DNA of 64,000 bases from Candidatus Schneewindia gallinarum (lineage in GTDB: Bacteria; Bacillota; Clostridia; Oscillospirales; Ruminococcaceae): NCBI GenBank assembly GCA_904420175.1, contig CAJFUF010000023.1, forward strand, positions 62,001 through 126,000, given 5' to 3'. The translations under genes and the position numbers were made by a program. Below the pieces are notes generated by a model. That model was given only the letters and a program-made list of their open reading frames with translations. It searched no databases and had not been told where the DNA came from. This document shows, piece after piece, positions 8,409 to 63,768 of the stretch (position 1 is its first letter; each line of letters starts with the position of its first letter).

Positions 8409-11400
8409 TTGCCCAAACCATTTGTCCATTTACATGTCCATACGGAATACAGCCTGCTGGACGGCGCGTGCCGCCTTGACAAGCTGGTGGCCCATGCGAA
8501 GGAGCTGGGCCAAACTGCACTGGCCATCACCGACCACGGCGTGATGTACGGCGTGGTCGATTTTTATAAAGAGTGTAAAAAGCAGGGACTAAAGCCCATT
8601 ATCGGCTGCGAGGTGTATGTGGCGCCGAGAACCCGCTTTGACAAGGTGTACAAGACCGACTCGCACCCCTACCATCTTGTGCTGCTGTGCAAAAATTATG
8701 AGGGGTATCAGAACCTGATTCAGATGGTCTCTCTGTCCAATATCGAGGGGTTCTACAACCGTCCCCGCGTGGATATGGAGCTGCTGAAAAAATACAACGG
8801 CGGGCTTATCGCCCTGAGTGCCTGCCTTGCGGGGGAACTGCCGCGCCTGCTGATGGACGGCCGGTACGAGGATGCGAAACAGCTGGTGAACACCTACCGG
8901 GAGCTGTTCCCGGAGGGGTACTATATTGAAATGCAGGATCATGGCATTCCGGAGCAGAAGGAGCTGCTGCCCAAATTCATCCAGCTTTCTAAGGAGACGG
9001 GCGTGGGCCTTGTGGCCACAAACGATGTGCACTATGTGGAGAAGAAGGACCATGAGACGCAGCATGTGCTTGTCTGCCTGCAGACGGGAAAAACCGTGGA
9101 CGAGCCGGGCGGTCTTGAATTTTCCACGAATGAGTTTTATTTAAAAAGCGGGGAGGAGATGGCAGAGCTGTTCTCCTACGCCCCGGAGGCGATTGAGAAC
9201 ACAGTAAAAATTGCGGAGCAGTGCGGCTTTGATTTTGAGTTCGGCGTGACAAAGCTTCCGTATTTTTCCGCCCCCAACGGACAGGACAATACGGAATATT
9301 TTAAGGACTTATGCTATGCAGGCCTTCACAGGCACTACGGGGAGAATCCGCCGCAGGAAATTGTCGAACGGCTGGAGTACGAGATTTCCGTTGTTGAGAA
9401 GATGGGCTATGTGGAGTATTACCTCATCGTATTCGACTTTATCAACTACGCCAAACAGAACGGCATCCCGGTGGGGCCGGGACGCGGCTCCGGCGCAGGA
9501 AGCCTTGCCGCCTACTGCATGGGAATTACCAGCATCGATCCCATCAAATACAACCTGCTGTTTGAGCGCTTCCTCAACCCGGAGCGTGTCAGCATGCCGG
9601 ACTTTGACATTGACTTCTGCTTCGAGCGCAGGCAGGAGGTCATCGACTATGTGGTGCGGAAATACGGCAGCGACCATGTGGCGCAGATTATCACCTTTGG
9701 TACCATGGCTGCGCGCGGCGCCATTCGCGACGTGGGGCGGACGCTGGGCTTGAGCTATCAGCAGGTGGACGTCATTGCAAAGGCAGTGCCTTCGGGTCCT
9801 GCGGCGCTGCACATCACCCTCGACCGGGCACTGGAGGTTTCAAAGGAACTGCGTGACTTCTACGACAAGGACCCGCAGGCCAGAAAGCTGATTGATATGG
9901 CCCGGGCATTGGAGGGGATGCCGCGGCACGCCTCCACCCATGCAGCGGGCGTGGTCATTACAAGAGAGCCTGCCAGTAGCTATGTCCCGCTTCAGAAAAA
10001 CGGCGACGTCATCGTCACCCAGTTCCCAATGGGCACGCTGGAGGAACTGGGACTGCTGAAAATGGACTTCCTTGCACTGCGCAACCTGACGATTATTGAC
10101 GATGCGGTAAAGCAGGTTAAGCGCATGGAGCCGGACTTCTCCATTGATGCCATTCCTACGGACGACAAGGCGGTGTTCGAAATGCTGGGCGAGGGGCAGT
10201 CCACCGGTGTGTTCCAGTTCGAATCAGCGGGCATGCGCCGCGTCCTCAGCCAGTTCAAGCCGGAGTCCATTGAGGATCTCATCGCCATTGTGTCGCTGTA
10301 TCGCCCGGGTCCCATGGACAGTATTCCAACCTATATCCGGAACAAAAACAACCCCAGCCTTATCCGTTACAAGCACCCGCTGCTGGAACCGATTTTAAAG
10401 GTCACCTACGGTTGTATTGTCTATCAGGAGCAGGTCATGGAAATCTGCCGCAAGTTGGCGGGCTTCTCCCTGGGGCACGCGGACCTGGTGCGCCGCGCCA
10501 TGAGCAAAAAGAAGGCGGACGTCATGGAGAAGGAGCGGGCGAATTTTATCGCCGGATGTGAGAAAAACGGCGTCAGCAAAAACATCGCCACCGACATCTT
10601 CAATGAGATGAGCAGCTTTGCCTCCTACGCCTTCAATAAATCCCATGCGGCGGCCTATGCGCTGGTGTCCTACCAGACCGCCTATCTCAAGTGCCACTAC
10701 CCACAGCAGTACATGGCGTCGCTTTTGACCAGCGTCATCGACAACACGGATAAGATTATCGAGTACATCGGTGAGTGTACCCGCATCGGCATTAAGGTAC
10801 TGCAGCCGGACATTGAAAAGGGTGACTTAAACTTCACCGCTTATGGAAAGGACATTCTGTTCAGCCTGCTGGCCATTAAAAACGTGGGACGAAACGTGCT
10901 GGCGGATCTGCTGGCGGACCGGGACCAGAACGGGGAATTCACCAGCTTTTACGACTTCCTTAAACGGGCCACGGCCGCAGGCATTAACAAGCGCGCCATT
11001 GAAAACCTGATTAAAAGCGGCGCGCTGGACGGCTTTTCACTTGGACGTGCATCCATGATGCATAATTTTGAAAGCATGGTGGACAGCATCCAGGCGGAAA
11101 ACAAGCGCAACTTAACCGGCCAGATTGACTTTTTCGGCGGTTTGGACGAGGGGGAGACCGTCACCTTTACCGAGGTGCCGGAGTATGTGCAGAGTGAGCT
11201 GCTGAAGATGGAGAAAGAGACCATCGGCATCTATTTGTCGGGCCATCCGCTGGAGAAATACCGCGGCCTTTCCGCACGGCTGAAGGCCACGCCCATCCGC
11301 TTCATTCTTGAGGAAGAGGATCGGGACCGTCTTGACGGAAGAAGGGTAACGGTGTTGGTTGTGGTGCTGCAAAAGTCGGTGAGAATTACAAAATCCGGAA

Positions 11401-11944: not shown

Positions 11945-12916
11945 ATGAAGAAAATCAAAGCGATTGGCGTTTTGACCAGCGGCGGCGATGCGCCGGGCAT
12001 GAATGCGGCCATTCGTGCGGTGGTCAGAACTGCAATTACCAACGGTATCAGGGTCTACGGCATTAAACGCGGGTATAACGGGCTGTACCACGGCGACATG
12101 TTTGAGATGAATCTGCGCAGCGTGTCCGACATTATCAACCGCGGCGGCACGATCCTCTATACCGCCAGAAGTAAGGAGTTTAACAGCCCGGAGGGCGTTT
12201 TAAAAGCAAAAGAGCAGTGTGAGAAGGCCGGCCTTGACGCCATTGTGTGCATCGGCGGCGACGGCACGTTCCGCGGCGCGCTGGATCTGTCGCGCGTCGG
12301 TGTTCCGTGCGTGGGCATTCCCGGCACCATCGACAATGACATCGGCTGCAGCGAGTACACTATCGGCTACGACACAGCGATGAACACTGCCATGGAAATG
12401 ATTGATAAGATTCGTGACACTGCACAGTCCCACGACCGGTGCAGCGTTATCGAGGTTATGGGCCGCCGTGCCGGCTACATTGCCGTAAACACCGGCATTG
12501 CCTGCGGCGCCTCTGCAATCTGCATTCCTGAGCATCCCTTCAGCTTGGAGAAGGACTTCCTTGAGAAGGTCCGCGCCAACCAGAAAACCGGCAAGCGCCA
12601 CTTCATTGTGCTGGTTGCGGAAGGTGTCGGCGGCGTCCAGCAGATGGCGGAAGAGATTGAAGCCAAAACCGGTATTGAGACACGTGCTACCATCCTTGGC
12701 CACGTGCAGCGCGGCGGCGCGCCGTCCCTTCGGGATCGCGTAGTGGCAAGCCAGATGGGCTACCATGCTGTGAAGCTGCTGCTGGACGGAAAAGGCGGAC
12801 GCATCGTCGCCATGCAGAGCGAGAAAATCATTGATTTGGACATTGAGGAGGCGCTGGCCACTAAGAAAACGCTGGATCCTGCGCTGATCGACATGAACGA
12901 CGAAATCTCAATCTAG
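11945..12916 (+). CDS. pfkA: ATP-dependent 6-phosphofructokinase
   Basis: Phosphorylates fructose-6-phosphate, the committed step of glycolysis. The 323 residues match the bacterial short form. Visible motifs are GGDAPGMNAAIR at the N-terminus, the ATP site IGGDGTFRGA (with GGDG near residue 103, ATP rather than PPi type), the catalytic GIPGTIDNDI, and GHVQRGGAPS for substrate binding. The start ATG 11945 is preceded by GGAGG. A strong terminator follows. Confidence 0.97.
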   Translation: MKKIKAIGVLTSGGDAPGMNAAIRAVVRTAITNGIRVYGIKRGYNGLYHGDMFEMNLRSVSDIINRGGTILYTARSKEFNSPEGVLKAKEQCEKAGLDAIVCIGGDGTFRGALDLSRVGVPCVGIPGTIDNDIGCSEYTIGYDTAMNTAMEMIDKIRDTAQSHDRCSVIEVMGRRAGYIAVNTGIACGASAICIPEHPFSLEKDFLEKVRANQKTGKRHFIVLVAEGVGGVQQMAEEIEAKTGIETRATILGHVQRGGAPSLRDRVVASQMGYHAVKLLLDGKGGRIVAMQSEKIIDLDIEEALATKKTLDPALIDMNDEISI

Positions 12917-40370: not shown

Positions 40371-40407
40371 AAAAGCGTGGGATGAATGCTTCATCCCACG
40401 CTTTTTT
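40369..40407. terminator. Bidirectional terminator shared by mnmA and feoB
   Basis: Perfect 18-base arms (AAAAAAGCGTGGGATGAA and its complement) with a 3-base loop. The mnmA stop and the feoB stop each overlap an outer end. Confidence 0.92.
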
Positions 40408-41131
40408 ATAGCGGCAGCAGGCTGAGCAGAAGGTTTGCCGCCATGCACGTGATCATTCCAACTGCGGTCGGGATAAGGATGGACAGCCCGGTCCATTTCC
40501 AGCTTCCCGTCTCTTTCCGGATGGTGAGACAGGTAGTTGAGCAGGGCCAGTGCAGCAGGGAAAACAGCATAAGGCACAGCGCAGTTTTGGCGGTCCAGCC
40601 ATTGGCGACCAGCAGTATTTTAAAGGCGCTCAGCTCGCCTATTGGCGCAATGGTGCCGCTGGCAACATAGATCATCATGATAATCGGCAGAACAATTTCA
40701 TTCGCAGGAAAGCCCAGCACAAAGGCGACAAGGATGGCACCATCCAGTCCCATCAGCTGGCCCAGAGGGTCCAGAAATGCAGAAAAATGGGCCAGCAGGC
40801 TTTGATCGCCTATTGTTACGGCGGCCAGCCCCCAAAGCAGCAGCCCGGCGGGCAGGGCCACGGCTGCTGCCCGGCCCAGTACAAACAGGGTGCGGTCAAA
40901 TATGGAACGTACCAGTACTTTACCGAACTGGGGACGCCGATAGGGAGGAAGCTCCAGCGTAAACGAGGAGGGAACCCCCTTTAGCAGCGTGGCAGATAAA
41001 AGACGTGACACCCAAAATGTCATGGCCACGCCGAACACGATAACACACACCAGCAGCAACGCCGACAGAAGGCTGGAAAACATACCATCCGCCACAAAAA
41101 ACATGGAGATCATTGCAATCATGGTTGGGAA
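40406..41131 (-). pseudogene. feoB: FeoB C-terminal part, separated from its 5' part by an inserted element
   Basis: The frame from FPTMIAMISMFF to the stop encodes the second half of the FeoB membrane domain (the Gate/nucleoside-recognition helices, including WVSRLL and VALPAGLLLWGL), about 240 residues. It has no native start; the track ORF of 265 residues begins inside the recombinase gene. Joined at the TT core with the 5' part (45756-47149) it gives a continuous 705-residue FeoB with the normal NGRFPT sequence at the join. As it stands no full FeoB can be made unless the element excises. Confidence 0.88.
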
Positions 41132-41153
41132 TGCGCCTCCATGCAAATGGCAA
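41115..41153. other. Attachment site junction at the recombinase end
   Basis: Read on the minus strand: the element arm TTGCCATTTGCATGGAGGCG (41153-41134), CA, core TT (41131-41130), then feoB sequence CCCAACCATG. The arm mirrors the one at the other junction at the same 2-bp distance from the core. Confidence 0.75.
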
Positions 41154-41163
41154 GTTTCAGCGC

Positions 41164-42777
41164 CTAGCAATTGAAAAACACAGTAAAAGTACCCTCCTTC
41201 CAAAGAATTTTGCGTACCACCAGCCGGACAAAGGCCTGTTTTTCAGGCAAGGTCAGCTCGGCAGACAGGTTTCCAAGACTGGACAGGGTTTCGGAGAACT
41301 TTGCCGGACCGCAACTGTCCGGCCACCGGTTTTCTTTAAGCTGCCGATGGGCCTTATCCAGCTTGGACAGCTCTTGCTCCAATTCATGAAGCCTGCCCTC
41401 AATGCGCCGGGCCAGCGTGGAACCGGGAACCTGAAGGGCCAGCGTGCGGATTAGGCGATCCATTTCCATGCCGCACCGCTTCCTGTCCGACTGGATTTTC
41501 TCCAAAGGGTCAACCGCCTCCGTCTTTGAAAGGCTTCTCTTTACCTTTTCCAGCAGTGGAACAATCCCGGCATCCCCTTTCACTTCGTTGATTAAACTGT
41601 CCCACAGCATGCTGTCTGCCTGCTGCCCACAGATATTTTGACCGCAGCACCGGCTTTTTCCTCCGTGCAGTTTTAAAGAACAGACATAATCAAAGGCCTC
41701 CGTATGACCCTCTGATGGGAGAGAACGGTGTTTGGCGAACATCCGGCTTCCACATTCGCCGCACACAATCAGGCCGGACAGCAGGGAATAGCGGCTGTGA
41801 ACGGATGGCGGAGTATGGACAGCGGGCCTGTTGCTTTCCAGAATTTGTTGTACGGACACCCACTGCCTGCCGGGAATACGGCCCCTGTGCAGCCCGGCCG
41901 CCACAATCCACTTGTCGATGGGGCGCCTCGGCGCCTGCTTTTTTGTGTAATCCCGCTTGTTGTAAGCCAGCAGGCCGCAGCCTTTCCCACCCTTTCTTTC
42001 AAAGCAGACGTCTGCATGCCGGGCTGTAAAAAAATCAAATGCCGCTTCATCCGCTGTGCAGTAGACGGGATTTTGCAGAATTTCCTTGACCCCGGAAGGG
42101 GAGTAGGGGCTTCCGCTGCGCGTTTTTATGCCGTGTGCCGTCAGGCGGTTGCATACGCCGGAAAGGCTGTGCAGTTCCAGATAGGAATCAAAGATCTTAT
42201 CGACAACGCGCAGCTCTTCCGGATTTTCTTTCAGCTTACAGGAAATTTTTCTTTTCCCGTCAAGAAACAGCTCCACGTGCTTTTCAGAGGTGTAACCGGT
42301 CGGTGTGGTCCCGCCAAGCCAGCGGCCGGTGCGCGCCAGCATCAGCATGTTATCCCGCACCCGCTCGGCAATGGTTTCCCGCTCCAGCTGGGCAAACACG
42401 GAAGCAATGTACATCATGGCCTTTCCCATGGGCTTTGACGTATCAAATTCCTCCTTCATGCAGATAAAGGATATTCCACGGCGGTTAAGCTCTTCGATTA
42501 GCAGGGAAAAGTCGCTTACACTGCGGCTGACCCGGTCAAGCCGGTAGCACACGACATAGTCGGGCTTATCAACCCGGAGATCTTTTAACATCTGCTGAAA
42601 CTGCGGCCGTTGTATGTTTTTTGCAGAAAACCCTTCGTCCTCGTAAATGGTGATGTCTCTTTCTGCCGTATCCGGAAATTTTGTAAGGATGTACTGCCTG
42701 CACATCTCAATTTGGTTTTCAATGCTTTCCCCCTTTCCGGTAAAAACGGACTTACGGCTGTAAATAAAAAATTTCAT
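41164..42777 (-). CDS. Large serine recombinase
   Basis: A 537-residue site-specific recombinase. The N-terminal resolvase domain has the nucleophile Ser10 in YSRKS and the conserved YRLDRVSRS; the recombinase domain follows (GYTSEKHVELF, GVKEILQNPVYC); then a zinc ribbon (CGECGSRM with later cysteines) and a coiled-coil near residues 430-490. The protein is full length and all key residues are present, so it should be active. It points towards its attachment site, as usual. The start ATG 42777 overlaps the stop of an 18-codon leader ORF; its own ribosome site is poor (AAAGGA directly next to the ATG), suggesting coupling. Confidence 0.93.
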   Translation of the reverse strand: MKFFIYSRKSVFTGKGESIENQIEMCRQYILTKFPDTAERDITIYEDEGFSAKNIQRPQFQQMLKDLRVDKPDYVVCYRLDRVSRSVSDFSLLIEELNRRGISFICMKEEFDTSKPMGKAMMYIASVFAQLERETIAERVRDNMLMLARTGRWLGGTTPTGYTSEKHVELFLDGKRKISCKLKENPEELRVVDKIFDSYLELHSLSGVCNRLTAHGIKTRSGSPYSPSGVKEILQNPVYCTADEAAFDFFTARHADVCFERKGGKGCGLLAYNKRDYTKKQAPRRPIDKWIVAAGLHRGRIPGRQWVSVQQILESNRPAVHTPPSVHSRYSLLSGLIVCGECGSRMFAKHRSLPSEGHTEAFDYVCSLKLHGGKSRCCGQNICGQQADSMLWDSLINEVKGDAGIVPLLEKVKRSLSKTEAVDPLEKIQSDRKRCGMEMDRLIRTLALQVPGSTLARRIEGRLHELEQELSKLDKAHRQLKENRWPDSCGPAKFSETLSSLGNLSAELTLPEKQAFVRLVVRKILWKEGTFTVFFNC

Positions 42778-42830
42778 TTCCTTTGGCCCCCGGCATGGGA
42801 CACCAAACGGGTGCAGATTTTATGAAGCAT
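42774..42830 (-). CDS. Leader peptide ORF coupled to the recombinase
   Basis: Too short for the ORF track. ATG 42830 follows GGGGAGGTG at a good distance and opens 18 codons (MLHKICTRLVSHAGGQRK). Its TGA overlaps the recombinase ATG as ATGA. The arrangement suggests that translation of the leader delivers ribosomes to the recombinase start; it may thus set or regulate the low dose of recombinase. No homologue is known to me. Confidence 0.5.
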   Translation of the reverse strand: MLHKICTRLVSHAGGQRK

Positions 42831-42898
42831 ATTGTAAACACCTCCCCAATAATCTATATTCCTGTTTTGGTGTTCCATATCTCCAAACTGTTGCAAGA

Positions 42899-42937
42899 AA
42901 AGCCGCCCATACAGTTTCCTGCATGGGCGGCTTTTTT
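42899..42937. terminator. Terminator between malic enzyme and recombinase genes
   Basis: Stem AAAGCCGCCCAT / ATGGGCGGCTTT around a 12-base loop, with T runs on the plus strand and a weaker one on the minus strand. It ends the ldh-malic enzyme transcript, so the recombinase needs its own promoter downstream of it; none with clear boxes was found. Confidence 0.8.
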
Positions 42938-42967
42938 GTTTGCTAAGTGTAAAATTTTCTTAATCGC

Positions 42968-44140
42968 TTAGATGCGGGCAACGCCGGACTTGCGGGCCGC
43001 TTCTGCCACAGCTTCTGCCACAGCCTTAGCGACACTGCGATCCAGAGCGCTGGGAATGATGTAGTCCGCAGACAGCTTGTCGTCTGTGACGAAGGAAGCA
43101 ATGGCCTTGGCGGCGGCAATCTTCATCTCGTCGTTGATATCGCTGGCGCGCACATCCAAAGCACCACGGAAAATACCAGGGAAAGCCAGAACATTGTTAA
43201 TCTGGTTGGGGAAGTCACTGCGTCCGGTTCCAACAACGGCAGCGCCAGCCTCTTTTGCCAGGTCGGGCATGATTTCCGGAACGGGGTTTGCCATGGGGAA
43301 CAGAATGGGGTTGGGCGCCATGGACTTGACCATCTCAGGGGTCACGCAGCCGGGGGCAGAAACACCGATGAACACATCGGCGCCCTTCAGCACATCGGCC
43401 AGGGTGCCTTTACGGCACTCTTTATTGGTGATGGCAGCCATCTCCATCTTTTCAGCATTGAGGTTTTCACGGCCCTGATAGATAGCGCCCTGCCGGTCGC
43501 AGAGAACCACGTCCTTCAGGCCCATGGCAATCAACAGACGAATGATGGCGATGCCTGCAGCGCCTGCGCCGCTGGTGACAACACGGATTTCATCCAGCTT
43601 TTTACCAGTCAGTTTCAGGGCATTCAGCATGGCAGCCAGGGTGACCACAGCAGTACCGTGCTGGTCGTCATGGAAAATCGGGATGTCGCAGCACTCTTTC
43701 AGACGGCGCTCGATCTCGAAGCAGCGGGGGGCGGAAATGTCCTCCAGGTTGACGCCGCCAAAGCTGCCGGCCAGCAGGCGGACAGTGTTGACAATGTCGT
43801 CCACCTCTTTGGAACGAATGCACAGCGGGATGGCATCTACATCACCGAAGGCCTTAAACAGGGCGCATTTTCCTTCCATAACCGGCATACCAGCCTCGGG
43901 GCCGATGTCTCCGAGACCCAGCACGGCGGTGCCGTCGGTTACTACGGCGACCAAATTGGAACGACGGGTCAGCTCGTAGCTTTGGTTGACATCCTTCTGG
44001 ATTTCCAGGCAGGGCTGGGCAACACCAGGCGTGTAGGCGAGGGAAAGGTCATCCCGCGTCTCCAGAGGGGCCCGGCAAATCACTTCGATTTTGCCTTTCC
44101 ATTCCTTGTGCTTTTTGAGAGATTCCACAGCGTAGTCCAT
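42968..44140 (-). CDS. NAD-type malic enzyme
   Basis: Oxidatively decarboxylates L-malate to pyruvate and CO2. The 390-residue short bacterial form has the malic domain (SLAYTPGVAQPCLEI; TDGTAVLGLGDIG; FHDDQHGTAVV) and an NAD-binding domain with SGAGAAGIAII and an acidic residue (VLCDRQG) at the end of the second strand, which favours NAD over NADP. The start ATG 44140 follows AAAGGAAG. It is 24 bases downstream of ldh in one operon, within the element that splits feoB. Confidence 0.93.
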   Translation of the reverse strand: MDYAVESLKKHKEWKGKIEVICRAPLETRDDLSLAYTPGVAQPCLEIQKDVNQSYELTRRSNLVAVVTDGTAVLGLGDIGPEAGMPVMEGKCALFKAFGDVDAIPLCIRSKEVDDIVNTVRLLAGSFGGVNLEDISAPRCFEIERRLKECCDIPIFHDDQHGTAVVTLAAMLNALKLTGKKLDEIRVVTSGAGAAGIAIIRLLIAMGLKDVVLCDRQGAIYQGRENLNAEKMEMAAITNKECRKGTLADVLKGADVFIGVSAPGCVTPEMVKSMAPNPILFPMANPVPEIMPDLAKEAGAAVVGTGRSDFPNQINNVLAFPGIFRGALDVRASDINDEMKIAAAKAIASFVTDDKLSADYIIPSALDRSVAKAVAEAVAEAARKSGVARI

Positions 44141-44164
44141 AATCGTTACTTCCTTTCTAAACTT

Positions 44165-45121
44165 TTATTTAATATTTAACTGGGAAATGACATTTTTTAA
44201 TGCGTCGGCACTTTTATGTAACAGCGCCTCTTCCTCCGGCAGCAGGGGAGGGACGATGGCACGGACAATGCCCTGTGCACCAACCACAAAAGGCAGGCTT
44301 AAGCACACGTCATTGATGCCGTACTGGTTATGAATCATGGCGGAAACGGTCATCACAGAATCTGTGTCACGGATAATGCACTCACAAATCCGGCGTACGG
44401 AAAGTGCAATGGCATAGAAGGTGGCCCCCTTCAGTGAAATGACCTGGGCGCCCGCCGTGCGGACATCCTCCTCGATGTCCTTCAACTCATCCTTGCCGCA
44501 ATGGTTGTGCCGGTCACAGATATAGGTGCAGTACTTGTTCATCTCCATTCCTGCGATGGTGGTTAAGGACCAGGGGATAAGGGAAGTGTCCCCGTGCTCT
44601 CCAAACACATAGGCATGAACGTTTTTAGAACTCAGGCCGACATGCTCGGCAAGACTGGAACGGAGCCGGGCGGAGTCCAGCATGGTGCCGGAGCCAAAGA
44701 CCTGACGCTCCGACAGATTGGTGTTTTTCAGAATAGCGTAAGTAATAATGTCCACCGGGTTGCTGACAACCACATATACCGCATCCGGAGCATATTTTGT
44801 AATCTGCGGCATAACCATTTTAATGATGTCAACGTTTGCCTGGGCAAGGTCAATACGGGTTTGTCCGGGCTTCCGTGCGAGGCCGACTGTGACAACCACC
44901 ACATCGGACTGGACCGCGTCCTCATATCCGCCGGCATGGATATTAACTGGAGCACAGAAGGGGGTACCCTGAAAAATGTCGAGCGCTTCTCCCTTTGCCT
45001 TGTTTTCGTTGATGTCAATCAACAGAATTTCGGAGGCCATCCCGTCCGCCGCCAGTGTGTAGGCAATTGTGGCACCCACATTGCCGGCCCCAAGAATCGT
45101 AATTTTTTTGCCTTTTTTCAT
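44165..45121 (-). CDS. ldh: L-lactate dehydrogenase
   Basis: Reduces pyruvate to L-lactate with NADH. The 318 residues show the nucleotide motif GAGNVGATIAY, the substrate-specificity loop LARKPGQTRID with Gln87 (Gln marks lactate, Arg would mark malate dehydrogenase), and the catalytic His in FGEHGDTS. The start ATG 45121 has GGAG ten bases upstream, after a leader of about 175 bases. It is first in the operon with malic enzyme; together they would run malate to lactate plus CO2 with NADH recycled between them. Confidence 0.93.
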   Translation of the reverse strand: MKKGKKITILGAGNVGATIAYTLAADGMASEILLIDINENKAKGEALDIFQGTPFCAPVNIHAGGYEDAVQSDVVVVTVGLARKPGQTRIDLAQANVDIIKMVMPQITKYAPDAVYVVVSNPVDIITYAILKNTNLSERQVFGSGTMLDSARLRSSLAEHVGLSSKNVHAYVFGEHGDTSLIPWSLTTIAGMEMNKYCTYICDRHNHCGKDELKDIEEDVRTAGAQVISLKGATFYAIALSVRRICECIIRDTDSVMTVSAMIHNQYGINDVCLSLPFVVGAQGIVRAIVPPLLPEEEALLHKSADALKNVISQLNIK

Positions 45122-45303
45122 ACAGTCTTATCTCCATTACTTGAAATCTATATAACGGCATAAAACTGCCGGCCGAAAGATAAACGGATTTTCCAAGTAG
45201 GGCACGAAAAACGCTCATCCAAACGATACGAAAAGCCTTAGCCGTTATACAGGGGAGAGGGCCTTATAAAAATTCGCCTTCTCCCCCTTATATCATATTC
45301 ATA

Positions 45304-45333
45304 AGTATATCATTTGGCAGGGGACTTTGTAAA
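45304..45333 (-). promoter_or_regulatory. Promoter of the ldh-malic enzyme operon
   Basis: On the minus strand TTTACA (45333-45328), 18 bases, TATACT (45309-45304) with a TGA extension before the -10. The -35 lies in the right arm of the CTTTGTAAA/TTTACAAAG inverted repeat, so a repressor bound there would block it. Confidence 0.65.
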
Positions 45334-45349
45334 GCCCCTTTACAAAGAA

Positions 45350-45370
45350 TTTGTGATATTAAAACACAAT
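45350..45370. promoter_or_regulatory. Rex-like inverted repeat upstream of ldh
   Basis: TTTGTG-N9-CACAAT, just upstream of the ldh promoter. It resembles the redox repressor Rex operator (TTGTG-N8-CACAA), which often controls ldh, but the spacing is one base too long, so this is a candidate only. Confidence 0.35.
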
Positions 45371-45469
45371 ATTTACGTAGAATAGATGACTTCCCGTCGG
45401 AAACGGGGAAACACTCGATAAATCTGAGTACGGCCAAGCGCCGGACGGCTCTTTGCAAAGCAAAGGGCT

Positions 45470-45499
45470 GAATAACGGGACGCTGCCATTCCATACAAT
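45470..45499 (+). promoter_or_regulatory. Candidate sigma-E promoter of the small element gene
   Basis: GAATAAC, 15 bases, CATACAAT. The -10 is an exact match to the sigma-E consensus CATACAHT; the -35 matches five of seven positions of KMATATT. No sigma-A boxes are seen at a suitable place. Confidence 0.45.
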
Positions 45500-45530
45500 T
45501 TTCTAAAAAAGAATTTGGGGGAGGATATAT

Positions 45531-45719
45531 GTGAAAAAAAACCATGTTCGGCGTGTCCTCTTTCAAGAACCGGAAAACAGTGCAGGGAATTTGTCGGGGA
45601 AGATTAATGAGTTTCACGCTGAAATAATCGAGCGCAGGATACGGCGCCTGGACCTTTCGGTTCGACAGAAGTCAGATATAATAGATAATATCATTCAGCA
45701 CATGAAATCTTCTGTCTGA
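45531..45719 (+). CDS. Small basic protein of the element, unknown function (candidate excision factor)
   Basis: A 62-residue protein, starting at GTG 45531 behind GGGGGAGG. It is charged, has no membrane helix, and its C-terminal half (EIIERRIRRLDLSVRQKSDI) looks like an amphipathic helix. I do not recognise a family. Its position, at the opposite end of the element from the recombinase and 37 bases from the attachment core, together with its size, fits a recombination directionality factor, but that is inference. It overlaps the 3' end of the truncated feoB ORF on the other strand by 25 bases. Confidence 0.6.
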   Translation: MKKNHVRRVLFQEPENSAGNLSGKINEFHAEIIERRIRRLDLSVRQKSDIIDNIIQHMKSSV

Positions 45720-47149
45720 ACTGCCCTGAAAGTTTGCCTTTTGCGTGGTGGCGGTAAACGCCCGTTGCAGGGCACAAAATTATTTGTCAGGATGGCAAGA
45801 AGCCGCTCTCTGGGGGAATCGATAATTCGACACCCCACAACCCCCGCGGCATTACAGCCAAAGCCCATACACATGGTAAGCGCCTGTTTGCCGCAGGCTT
45901 TTGCTTTTTGGAAAAAACGGTCAAGATTAAAAGCAATCCGTGGCAGATAGCCGGAATCCTCCAAAAGGGTAAACAGCGGGAAAAAGATGGCCATGGGTGG
46001 CAGCATAACAGAGATCACCCATGCCAGCACACGGTATCCGCCGTAGACAACCGCTTCACAAATAACAGCAGACACACCTAAAGAACGCAGAAAATGGAAG
46101 AGAGGCTCTTCGAATGAGGTCAGCAGTCCGCTGAGCAGTTCACTGGGTACATTGGCGCCGCTGATGGTGAGAAAGAAAATTCCGCATAACATTAGCAGCA
46201 TGATGGGGATCCCGGTCAGCTTGCTGGTCAAAATCCGGTCAATTTTTTGGTCCCTCTGCCTGGCTCTGCTTTCCTGAAGGCGGACACAATCTGTGGCGAT
46301 TCCTTCTGCCGTCAGAACAATCCCCGCCACCAGCTTGTCGGTTAAATCCACACCAGAGAGAACAGCGTGTGCTTCGTTGACTGCTTCCTGAACGGAGGCA
46401 TCCTCAGTCAGTGGATAGCCGAGATACTCTTCAAGTTTCAAAAGAAAGTCCACGGATCCGTCCAGCAGCCGCAGGGCAAGCCATCGGGGAGGAAGACCCT
46501 TCAACCGGTGCGCCTTCAGTGTGGGTACCACCTCGTTGATCGCCTGTTCAACCAGCACCGGGTAGTTTACGGAAAATCCGACCGGTTCCTGCGCACAGAC
46601 GCTGTCTACAGCCGCTATCAGCTCGTCTAGGCCCTTTCCGCTGCGTGCCACTGTCTCCACTACCGGGACATGAAGAAGCCGAGACAGGGCTGCTGTGTCC
46701 ACGACAATGCCCTTTTTTCTCGCCTCGTCACACAGATTGAGGCAGACAACAGTCCGGCTGGTGATTTCCATGGTTTGCAGTACAAGATTTAAATTGCGCT
46801 CAAGGCAGGTGGCGTCGCACACCACCACAACTGCGTCGGCACCGCCAAAACACAGGAAGTCCCGTGCAACTTCCTCCTCGGCAGAATGGGCAAACAGGGA
46901 ATAGGTGCCGGGCAGATCCACCAGTGTGTAATCGTTACTGCCGCGGCGAAAGCTTCCCTGCGCGCTGCAAACGGTTTTGCCGGGCCAGTTCCCGGTATGT
47001 TGATTCATTCCTGTCAGTTCATTAAACACCGTGCTTTTTCCCACGTTGGGGTTTCCTGCAAGAGCAATGATTTTTTCACCGTTTTTCCGGTGTAATACAA
47101 GCTCTCCTGAAGCAGTACCTTTTGACATGCTGCTGGCAGTCAGTCCCAT
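45695..47149 (-). CDS. feoB: FeoB N-terminal part (G domain and first membrane helices), truncated by the element
   Basis: Ferrous iron transporter, interrupted. Residues 1-464 are FeoB: G1 GNPNVGKST, G3 DLPGTYS, G4 NLCD, the GDI region, and the first half of the membrane domain up to NNFVPCNGR. Then the frame enters the inserted element and adds 20 foreign residues (LPPPRKRQTF...) before stopping at 45695. The track starts at TTG 47155; ATG 47149 with AGGGGG eight bases before it is better. The G domain is intact but the transport pore is incomplete, so it should not transport iron unless the element leaves. Confidence 0.9.
   Translation of the reverse strand: MGLTASSMSKGTASGELVLHRKNGEKIIALAGNPNVGKSTVFNELTGMNQHTGNWPGKTVCSAQGSFRRGSNDYTLVDLPGTYSLFAHSAEEEVARDFLCFGGADAVVVVCDATCLERNLNLVLQTMEITSRTVVCLNLCDEARKKGIVVDTAALSRLLHVPVVETVARSGKGLDELIAAVDSVCAQEPVGFSVNYPVLVEQAINEVVPTLKAHRLKGLPPRWLALRLLDGSVDFLLKLEEYLGYPLTEDASVQEAVNEAHAVLSGVDLTDKLVAGIVLTAEGIATDCVRLQESRARQRDQKIDRILTSKLTGIPIMLLMLCGIFFLTISGANVPSELLSGLLTSFEEPLFHFLRSLGVSAVICEAVVYGGYRVLAWVISVMLPPMAIFFPLFTLLEDSGYLPRIAFNLDRFFQKAKACGKQALTMCMGFGCNAAGVVGCRIIDSPRERLLAILTNNFVPCNGRLPPPRKRQTFRAVQTEDFMC
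45734..45775. other. Attachment site junction at the small-ORF end
   Basis: On the plus strand: element arm TTGCCTTTTGCGTGGTGGCG (45734-45753), GT, core AA (45756-45757), then feoB sequence ACGCCCGTTGCAG. The arm agrees with that of the other junction at 16 of 20 positions. Confidence 0.75.
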
Positions 47150-47172
47150 TGTCAAAGCCCCCTAATCGAAGC

Positions 47173-47218: not shown

Positions 47219-47449
47219 TCAGTTCAGCTGTATTTGTCTGGAGTCCTCGCACCGAAGCGCAATAACGGCCCCTCTGATTAAGTATGCGGCAGGATCCCCA
47301 AGCGGGCTTTTCAACACGCAGGTTACAGGGGTGCCCGGCGTCAAACCCAGATCCTGCAGCCTGCGCCGCATGGAGCTGTCCTCCCGTATTGATTTAACAA
47401 CTGCCTGCTGCCCGGGCTGCAAAGCAGACAACAACTGGTTTTCTTTCAT
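47219..47449 (-). CDS. feoA: Ferrous iron transport protein A
   Basis: A 76-residue SH3-like protein (LLSALQPGQQAVVKSI; RRRLQDLGLTPGTPV; ALRCEDSRQIQL), the cytoplasmic partner of FeoB. I use ATG 47449, nine bases after AAAGGAG; the track's TTG 47455 is too close to that site. It heads the feoAB operon. No clear Fur box was found upstream. Confidence 0.92.
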   Translation of the reverse strand: MKENQLLSALQPGQQAVVKSIREDSSMRRRLQDLGLTPGTPVTCVLKSPLGDPAAYLIRGAVIALRCEDSRQIQLN

Positions 47450-47536
47450 GCACAAAACTCCTTTGAGGATAATTGCTTACAGAAAGCTGGACTTTCTTAC
47501 TTCTATTCTATTAGCGGCTTTCTGCATTGGTGACAC

Positions 47537-63082: not shown

Positions 63083-63111
63083 TTTACATTTTATCACAAT
63101 TACCTTATACT
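63083..63111 (+). promoter_or_regulatory. Promoter of the cytidylate-kinase-like gene
   Basis: TTTACA, 17 bases, TATACT in an AT-rich stretch, 43 bases before ATG 63154. Confidence 0.7.
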
Positions 63112-63153
63112 GTAAATAGAAAGATCATACTTTAATTAAAGGAGGACAGGACC

Positions 63154-63768
63154 ATGAAAAACACCATCATTACCATCAGCCGACAGCATGGAAGCGGGGG
63201 ACGGGAGATTGGCAGAAAACTTGCCGGACAGCTTGGTATTCCCTTCTACGATAATGAAATTATCACTGCTGCGGCAAAGGCCTCCGGCTATGCGGAGGAA
63301 ATTTTCCACAATGCGGAGCAGCAGGGGGCGGGCAGTTTGCTGTTTTCACTGTCCATGTTCTCTTCTTCCGGCGGCTCCGCCGGGATGCCGTTAAGCGACC
63401 GGGTGTTTCTCATCCAGTCGGACGTCATTAAGAAGATGGCGGCAGAGGGGGACGGCATCTTTGTGGGCCGGTGCGCCGACTATGTACTGGGCGACTCAAA
63501 AGAGCTGAATTGCATCAACCTGTACGTCTACTCGGACTTTGACAAGCGGGTGGCGCGCGCCATTGAAGAGTATCACCTCGACAAGTCCAAGGCAGCAGAT
63601 ACCGTCAGGAAAATGGATAAAAAACGTGCCGCCTATTATGAATACTACACCGGAAATAAATGGGGAAGGGCGGAAAATTACCATCTGTCCATTAACAGCG
63701 GTATCATTGGCACGGAAAATTCGGTCAGCCTAATCAAAAGCTTCGTGGAACTGATTAAAGATAAATAG
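63154..63768 (+). CDS. Cytidylate kinase-like protein
   Basis: A 204-residue P-loop protein of the cytidylate-kinase-like family: ITISRQHGSGGREIGRKLA (the P-loop is GSGGREIG, different from true Cmk), VGRCADYVL and DKKRAAYYEYYTGNKWG. Common in Clostridia; the real substrate is unknown. ATG 63154 after AAAGGAGG. A terminator follows. Confidence 0.88.
   Translation: MKNTIITISRQHGSGGREIGRKLAGQLGIPFYDNEIITAAAKASGYAEEIFHNAEQQGAGSLLFSLSMFSSSGGSAGMPLSDRVFLIQSDVIKKMAAEGDGIFVGRCADYVLGDSKELNCINLYVYSDFDKRVARAIEEYHLDKSKAADTVRKMDKKRAAYYEYYTGNKWGRAENYHLSINSGIIGTENSVSLIKSFVELIKDK

Follow-up and report, generated by a model that had tools for sequence, protein, structure and literature searches.

A gene of 62 codons, ORF62, lies at one end of a 4.6-kb element that interrupts the gene of the ferrous-iron transporter FeoB, and it probably encodes the recombination directionality factor (RDF) of this element, that is, its excision factor. 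This reading follows from the association of the gene with related recombinases, the layout of the element, the kinship of the recombinase and the promoter, which together suggest that ORF62 works like an RDF. The earlier note had proposed an excision factor, and the relatives of ORF62 in elements with related recombinases support that proposal well; the small-protein family proved to be common to sigK and feoB elements, which is wider than was claimed at first. It is further put forward, with somewhat more doubt than confidence, that a programmed rearrangement rebuilds FeoB in the sporulating mother cell through an undescribed RDF family serving both sigK and feoB elements. If this were true, the system would resemble skin but act on the gene of a metabolic transporter and not on a known sporulation gene. 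The features of the window, i.e., the whole stretch of 64,000 nucleotides that was analysed, are collected in Table 1.

Table 1. Features of the feoB-interrupting element and its surroundings (positions in the window).
Feature	Position	Strand	Basis or detail
feoB-interrupting element	41130..45757		4626 bp between cores; junctions compared with intact feoB of relatives
Attachment core at FeoB C-half junction	41130..41131		AA on +, TT in feoB orientation; element arm 41132-41155
Attachment core at FeoB N-half junction	45756..45757		element arm 45732-45755; reconstructed attP dyad
Large serine recombinase, 537 aa	41164..42777	-	PF00239, PF07508, PF13408; 3′ end ~33 bp from core
Malic enzyme (cargo)	42968..44140	-	domain matches
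L-lactate/malate dehydrogenase (cargo)	44165..45121	-	domain matches
feoB 5′ part, residues 1-468	45756..47155	-	PF02421, TIGR00437; frame continues into element to 45695
feoB 3′ part	40406..41131	-	PF07664, PF07670
feoA, upstream of feoB	47219..47455	-	PF04023
ORF62, candidate recombination directionality (excision) factor	45531..45719	+	ORF with ribosome binding site; homologues in feoB and sigK elements
Ribosome binding site GGGGGAGG of ORF62	45517..45524	+	read from sequence
Sigma-E-type promoter of ORF62	45470..45499	+	GAATAAC 45470-45476, 15 bp, CATACAAT 45492-45499

In the window, feoB is interrupted at NNFVPCNGR/F (the slash marks the junction); the attB of intact relatives reads CCCTGCAACGGGCG-TT-TCCCAC and is located in a conserved codon (NGR/FP). 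The reconstructed attP arms form a dyad in which 17 of 24 positions are matched, against a mean of 6.4 after shuffling. After precise excision the predicted product reads CGT TTC CCA ACC (R F P T), and feoB is restored in frame as a gene of 707 codons. The rejoined protein of 707 aa can be aligned nearly end to end with intact FeoB proteins (at most 63% identity), its conservation is about that of intact orthologues, and the motifs GNPNVGKS, DLPG and NLCDE are kept. Among the open-access papers searched, none described an element that interrupts feoB.

A small gene at the element end with a promoter-like sequence upstream had been pointed out in the earlier note, and the reading frame with its start and position was recovered as claimed, as was the motif: ORF62 has a GTG start and a good ribosome binding site, its stop codon is 36 bp from the right attachment core, and the description "basic" agrees with the computed pI of 10.1 and charge of +3.8. 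The statement that the element contains no other candidate for an excision factor also holds, the rest consisting of the recombinase, the malic enzyme and the L-lactate/malate dehydrogenase, with ORF62 the sole small gene of this minimal element. A single-sequence fold prediction of ORF62 was mediocre (pLDDT 73). ORF62 has no match in Pfam or NCBIfam and only chance-level matches in PHROGs, while the wider family gives scattered sub-threshold matches in these libraries; on these searches, ORF62 founds a family that is absent from all three. Likewise, no match was obtained by tblastn against phages or by the profile against four C. difficile genomes. Several other identities were considered and rejected. 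A tautomerase-like function was set aside, as a few family members match 4-oxalocrotonate tautomerase weakly (best 0.00056, below the cut-off) and ORF62 itself has no match in Pfam or NCBIfam; a known small transposon protein such as TnpW was not matched in the same searches; and the PDB profile matches of ORF62 are designed helical repeats and unrelated chains.

A first search of 299 genomes of the family gave a few relatives of ORF62 (28-39% identity), three of which share a contig with a related recombinase, and the loci of the recombinase relatives have either feoB, at the same codon, or sigK as their target. When the profile was run against 394 genomes of the order, a match was found in 36 of them. 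Among the 35 family places that were inspected, 23 are in sigK-splitting elements (22 recognised by tblastn and one, L038, by reading the locus) and four in feoB-splitting elements, i.e., 27/35, whereas the chance that a 20-kb stretch holds sigK is about 1%, as estimated from genome size. As for the remaining places, L111 is beside an intact sigK, L135 is beside a serine recombinase without a visible target, and six are unassigned, some at contig ends. The sigK elements of the order split sigK at CIEN/EILM. The profile search which the earlier note had proposed shows that, in feoB as well as sigK elements, relatives of the 62-residue protein adjoin related serine recombinases or are placed at the other end of the element from them.

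The layout of the window element places the 3′ end of the recombinase at one junction and the small gene close to the other, and it is repeated in the complete sigK elements L118, L125, L127 and L128 and in the feoB element L031. In the four sigK elements, it is the C-half junction into which the recombinase runs and the N-half junction near which the small gene is found. The earlier note had counted absence of the gene from sister elements that excise as a result against its proposal; most sister feoB elements do have the gene, but in three it was not found or gave a weak match: no member of the family was found in the feoB elements of G119 and G100, and that of G116 gives a weak match only. 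In a blind test for a small gene next to FeoB-N, G116 was weakly positive, on the strand opposite to the layout prediction, and G119 was negative.

The kinship of the recombinases was examined in a maximum-likelihood tree of 29 sequences (10 from feoB elements, 16 from sigK elements and three first labelled "other"). The 10 feoB-element recombinases are on one side of a branch with support 100/100, and the 16 sigK-element recombinases are one clade (100/98), so that the window recombinase belongs to the sister clade of the sigK-element recombinases. The three "others" group with the sigK side, and L038, which shares its genome with one of them, was later read as a sigK element. On this tree, the feoB elements are sisters of the sigK (skin-type) elements by descent, beyond analogy. 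The view of the earlier note that this is a skin-like system with a new target gene agrees with gene content, layout and recombinase ancestry, and precise excision would restore the gene in frame as in a skin-type element; the part of that view which concerns sporulation fares less well, because no sigma-E-type promoter precedes feoAB and a search of this incomplete genome did not recover sigE.

The sigma-E −35 consensus is kmATATT, and the −35 box upstream of ORF62 has the ATA core and matches at 5/7 positions, while the −10 box matches CATACANT; the whole motif, GAATAAC-15-CATACAAT, is 31 nt upstream of the gene. It has been reported that the ATA core belongs to the −35 of sigma-E, whereas the −10 is common to sigma-E and sigma-K (PMC3789822), and the ATA core here points to sigma-E in preference to sigma-K. 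Counting both strands, the window has just two sites at which the CATANNNT box and an ATA −35 core stand 14-16 bp apart, one of them being that of ORF62. The other (63105-63133, TTATACT-14-CATACTTT) precedes a cytidylate-kinase-like gene (63154-63768) by about 20 nt.

For the promoter count, the CATANNNT box was sought 12-60 nt upstream of the genes, with 424 control genes. The box precedes 12/17 non-redundant small genes of sigK elements, against 25/424 controls (5.9%; binomial P ~8e-12), and 3/9 members from feoB elements (P = 0.013). With the ATA −35 core added, the counts are 7/17, 2/9 and 3/424 (0.7%), respectively. The enrichment of sigma-E/K-type promoters in front of the sigK-element small genes is what one would predict if they encode skin excision factors; the RDF gene CD1234 of C. 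difficile is read in the mother cell (PMC5025042). Upstream regions of spoIVA were of no use as a positive control for the motif because spoIVA is apparently downstream in an operon there; those of sigK served as a partial control, with CATANNNT in 10/16 against 2.5 expected. No clear sigma-E-type site was seen at spoIIIAA in the window. Thus the sigma-E promoter claimed earlier is supported for ORF62 itself, where it is probably real, and for the sigK-element family; among the feoB-element members, of which ORF62 is the only one with a strict CATACANT box, the 3/9 suggest but weakly that such a promoter is general.

From these data a working scheme may be drawn. With the recombinase on its own, the element would stay integrated, and ORF62, once made, would bind the recombinase and thereby allow recombination of attL with attR, freeing a 4.6-kb circle and rejoining feoB in frame. 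ORF62 is probably transcribed from the mother-cell promoter in front of it (sigma-E, possibly sigma-K), and excision would then occur nowhere but in the sporulating mother cell, with loss of the cargo limited to a cell that is dying. That excision is timed to sporulation in this way seems to us a possibility just short of even. Among the sporulation genes of the host, the spoIIIA operon is in the window (17.6-22.4 kb), and the bacterium's own genome has sigK in intact form together with a sigF-like gene. Searches of this genome recovered neither sigE nor spoIVA, but their absence is not decisive because the genome is 86.65% complete; spoIVA is present in 36/41 genomes searched.

ORF62 may also be the RDF of an ordinary mobile element whose excision takes place in vegetative cells and serves its spread, the promoter motif being a relic of a sigK-type ancestor or due to chance. 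We regard this as improbable on balance, although the possibility is a considerable one. It would agree with the 6/9 feoB-element members that have no motif at the right place, with the sigE that was not found and with cargo that varies widely between elements. It would also agree with feoAB, which has no sigma-E-type promoter upstream, either in the window or in 25 intact relatives, and for this reason it may be doubted what the sporulating cell gains from FeoB. Against vegetative excision are the rarity and correct placement of the ORF62 site, the strong enrichment of the motif in the sigK-element family, and the window element itself, among whose genes there is none for transfer.

The excision-factor reading can be compared with known systems. 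The C. difficile skin element also combines a serine recombinase (CD1231) with one small protein gene and splits a gene, and its RDF gene CD1234 has a mother-cell sigma-E promoter, as ORF62 has a sigma-E-type motif; it differs in that its target is sigK instead of feoB (PMC5025042). Moreover, the ORF62 family occurs in the sigK elements of the order. In SPbeta, which is inserted in spsM and uses SprA/SprB, the RDF gene is likewise at the element end with its 3′ end towards att, and the mother-cell promoter of sprB has a perfect −10 and an imperfect −35 (PMC4191935). The distance from the SprB stop to att (~40 bp) is a close geometric match to that of ORF62; however, SPbeta is a large functional phage and SprB is unrelated in sequence to ORF62. 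The nearest likeness is to the sigK (skin) elements of the Oscillospirales type (L118, L125, L127, L128 and others), which have a homologous small gene, sister recombinases and the same layout, and differ in their target and in sigma-E/K-type promoters that are much more consistent. The gin element in gerE (Bacillus cereus) and the yin element in yabG (Clostridium botulinum) are also gene-splitting and linked to sporulation (PMC5595907, PMC10747680), in other target genes; these two are likened by description.

By sequence homology, ORF62 is not a member of the CD1234 or SprB protein family: hhalign of its family gave 0.4% for the CD1234 candidate (L161:5473-5691, 72 codons, GTG start, identified in the C. 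difficile sigK element by size, start and place) and 0.1% for SprB, i.e., no similarity. It is in this respect that ORF62 might be a transcriptional or other accessory regulator borne by such elements, acting for instance on the recombinase gene, and in several loci (L030, L038 and L039) the family gene is divergent from the recombinase and adjoins it. A regulator in place of an RDF is nevertheless unlikely: no DNA-binding domain was recognised in ORF62 or its family in the domain-library searches, the minimal window element has no other small gene, and where sigK elements have a helix-turn-helix regulator it is a separate gene. ORF62 lies inside the element of its cognate recombinase, and the association of its family with one recombinase lineage is kept across genomes, as would be expected of an RDF. 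That feoB is simply broken and ORF62 a remnant of a dead island is very doubtful, since, in spite of a second, intact feoB paralogue in the same genome (G000:C10:17022-18986) and of the small size and ordinary metabolic cargo of the element, the recombinase and ORF62 are intact, as are the attP dyad and the two parts of feoB, the FeoB halves show no sign of decay, and feoB elements recur at the same feoB codon across many genera.

To our knowledge, the RDFs of serine recombinases described so far are unrelated to each other, and so RDFs cannot be predicted by homology. The present family, with about 40 members, is new and alignable and occurs in two kinds of gene-splitting elements. A sigK element must be excised for a complete sigma-K to be made, and the ORF62 family supplies a candidate RDF for the sigK elements of the order, and also testable sets of recombinase, RDF and att. 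A further question it raises is for what reason excision of DNA would serve to turn on an iron transporter.

Some further observations concern the elements themselves. The cargo of the window element (42968-45121, malic enzyme and L-lactate/malate dehydrogenase) belongs to C4-acid metabolism, as does that of the feoB element of G116 (L032, L187), which has a homologue of the lactate/malate dehydrogenase (54%), a fumarase, a CCG-domain protein and an FAD-binding protein resembling fumarate reductase. Some 40 codons further upstream (residue ~430), the same feoB has another hot spot for insertion, in L190 (G114) and also in G005, G066, G082 and G091; the serine recombinase that uses it in G114 is only distantly related. 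In L130 (10142-10309), a feoB fragment of about codons 430-470 only is apparently placed between two different insertions, in which case feoB would be split in three.

As for sigK, many genomes carry such elements, an order-wide set of the skin type whose recombinases are sister to those of the feoB elements, and the split at CIEN/EILM is seen in L112, L114, L115, L117-L121, L123-L128, L131-L133, L137, L138, L141-L143 and L038, i.e., at residue ~114, while in the C. difficile sigK elements L161 and L162 it is at about residue 140 of the order's numbering. In L111, the ORF62-family gene (10018-10317) precedes an unsplit sigK of full length (11972-12649) by about 1.7 kb. The sigK element at L038 (5507-8148) contains genes related to biotin, one for a radical SAM protein like BioB and one for a protein of the biotin ligase family. 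In many sigK elements, a conserved gene directly follows the sigK N-half (L112:7255-7851, L117:8171-8803, L118:11523-12149, L119:8348-8917, L123:9616-10191 and L132:8607-9245), and the copy in L112 is a helix-turn-helix protein.
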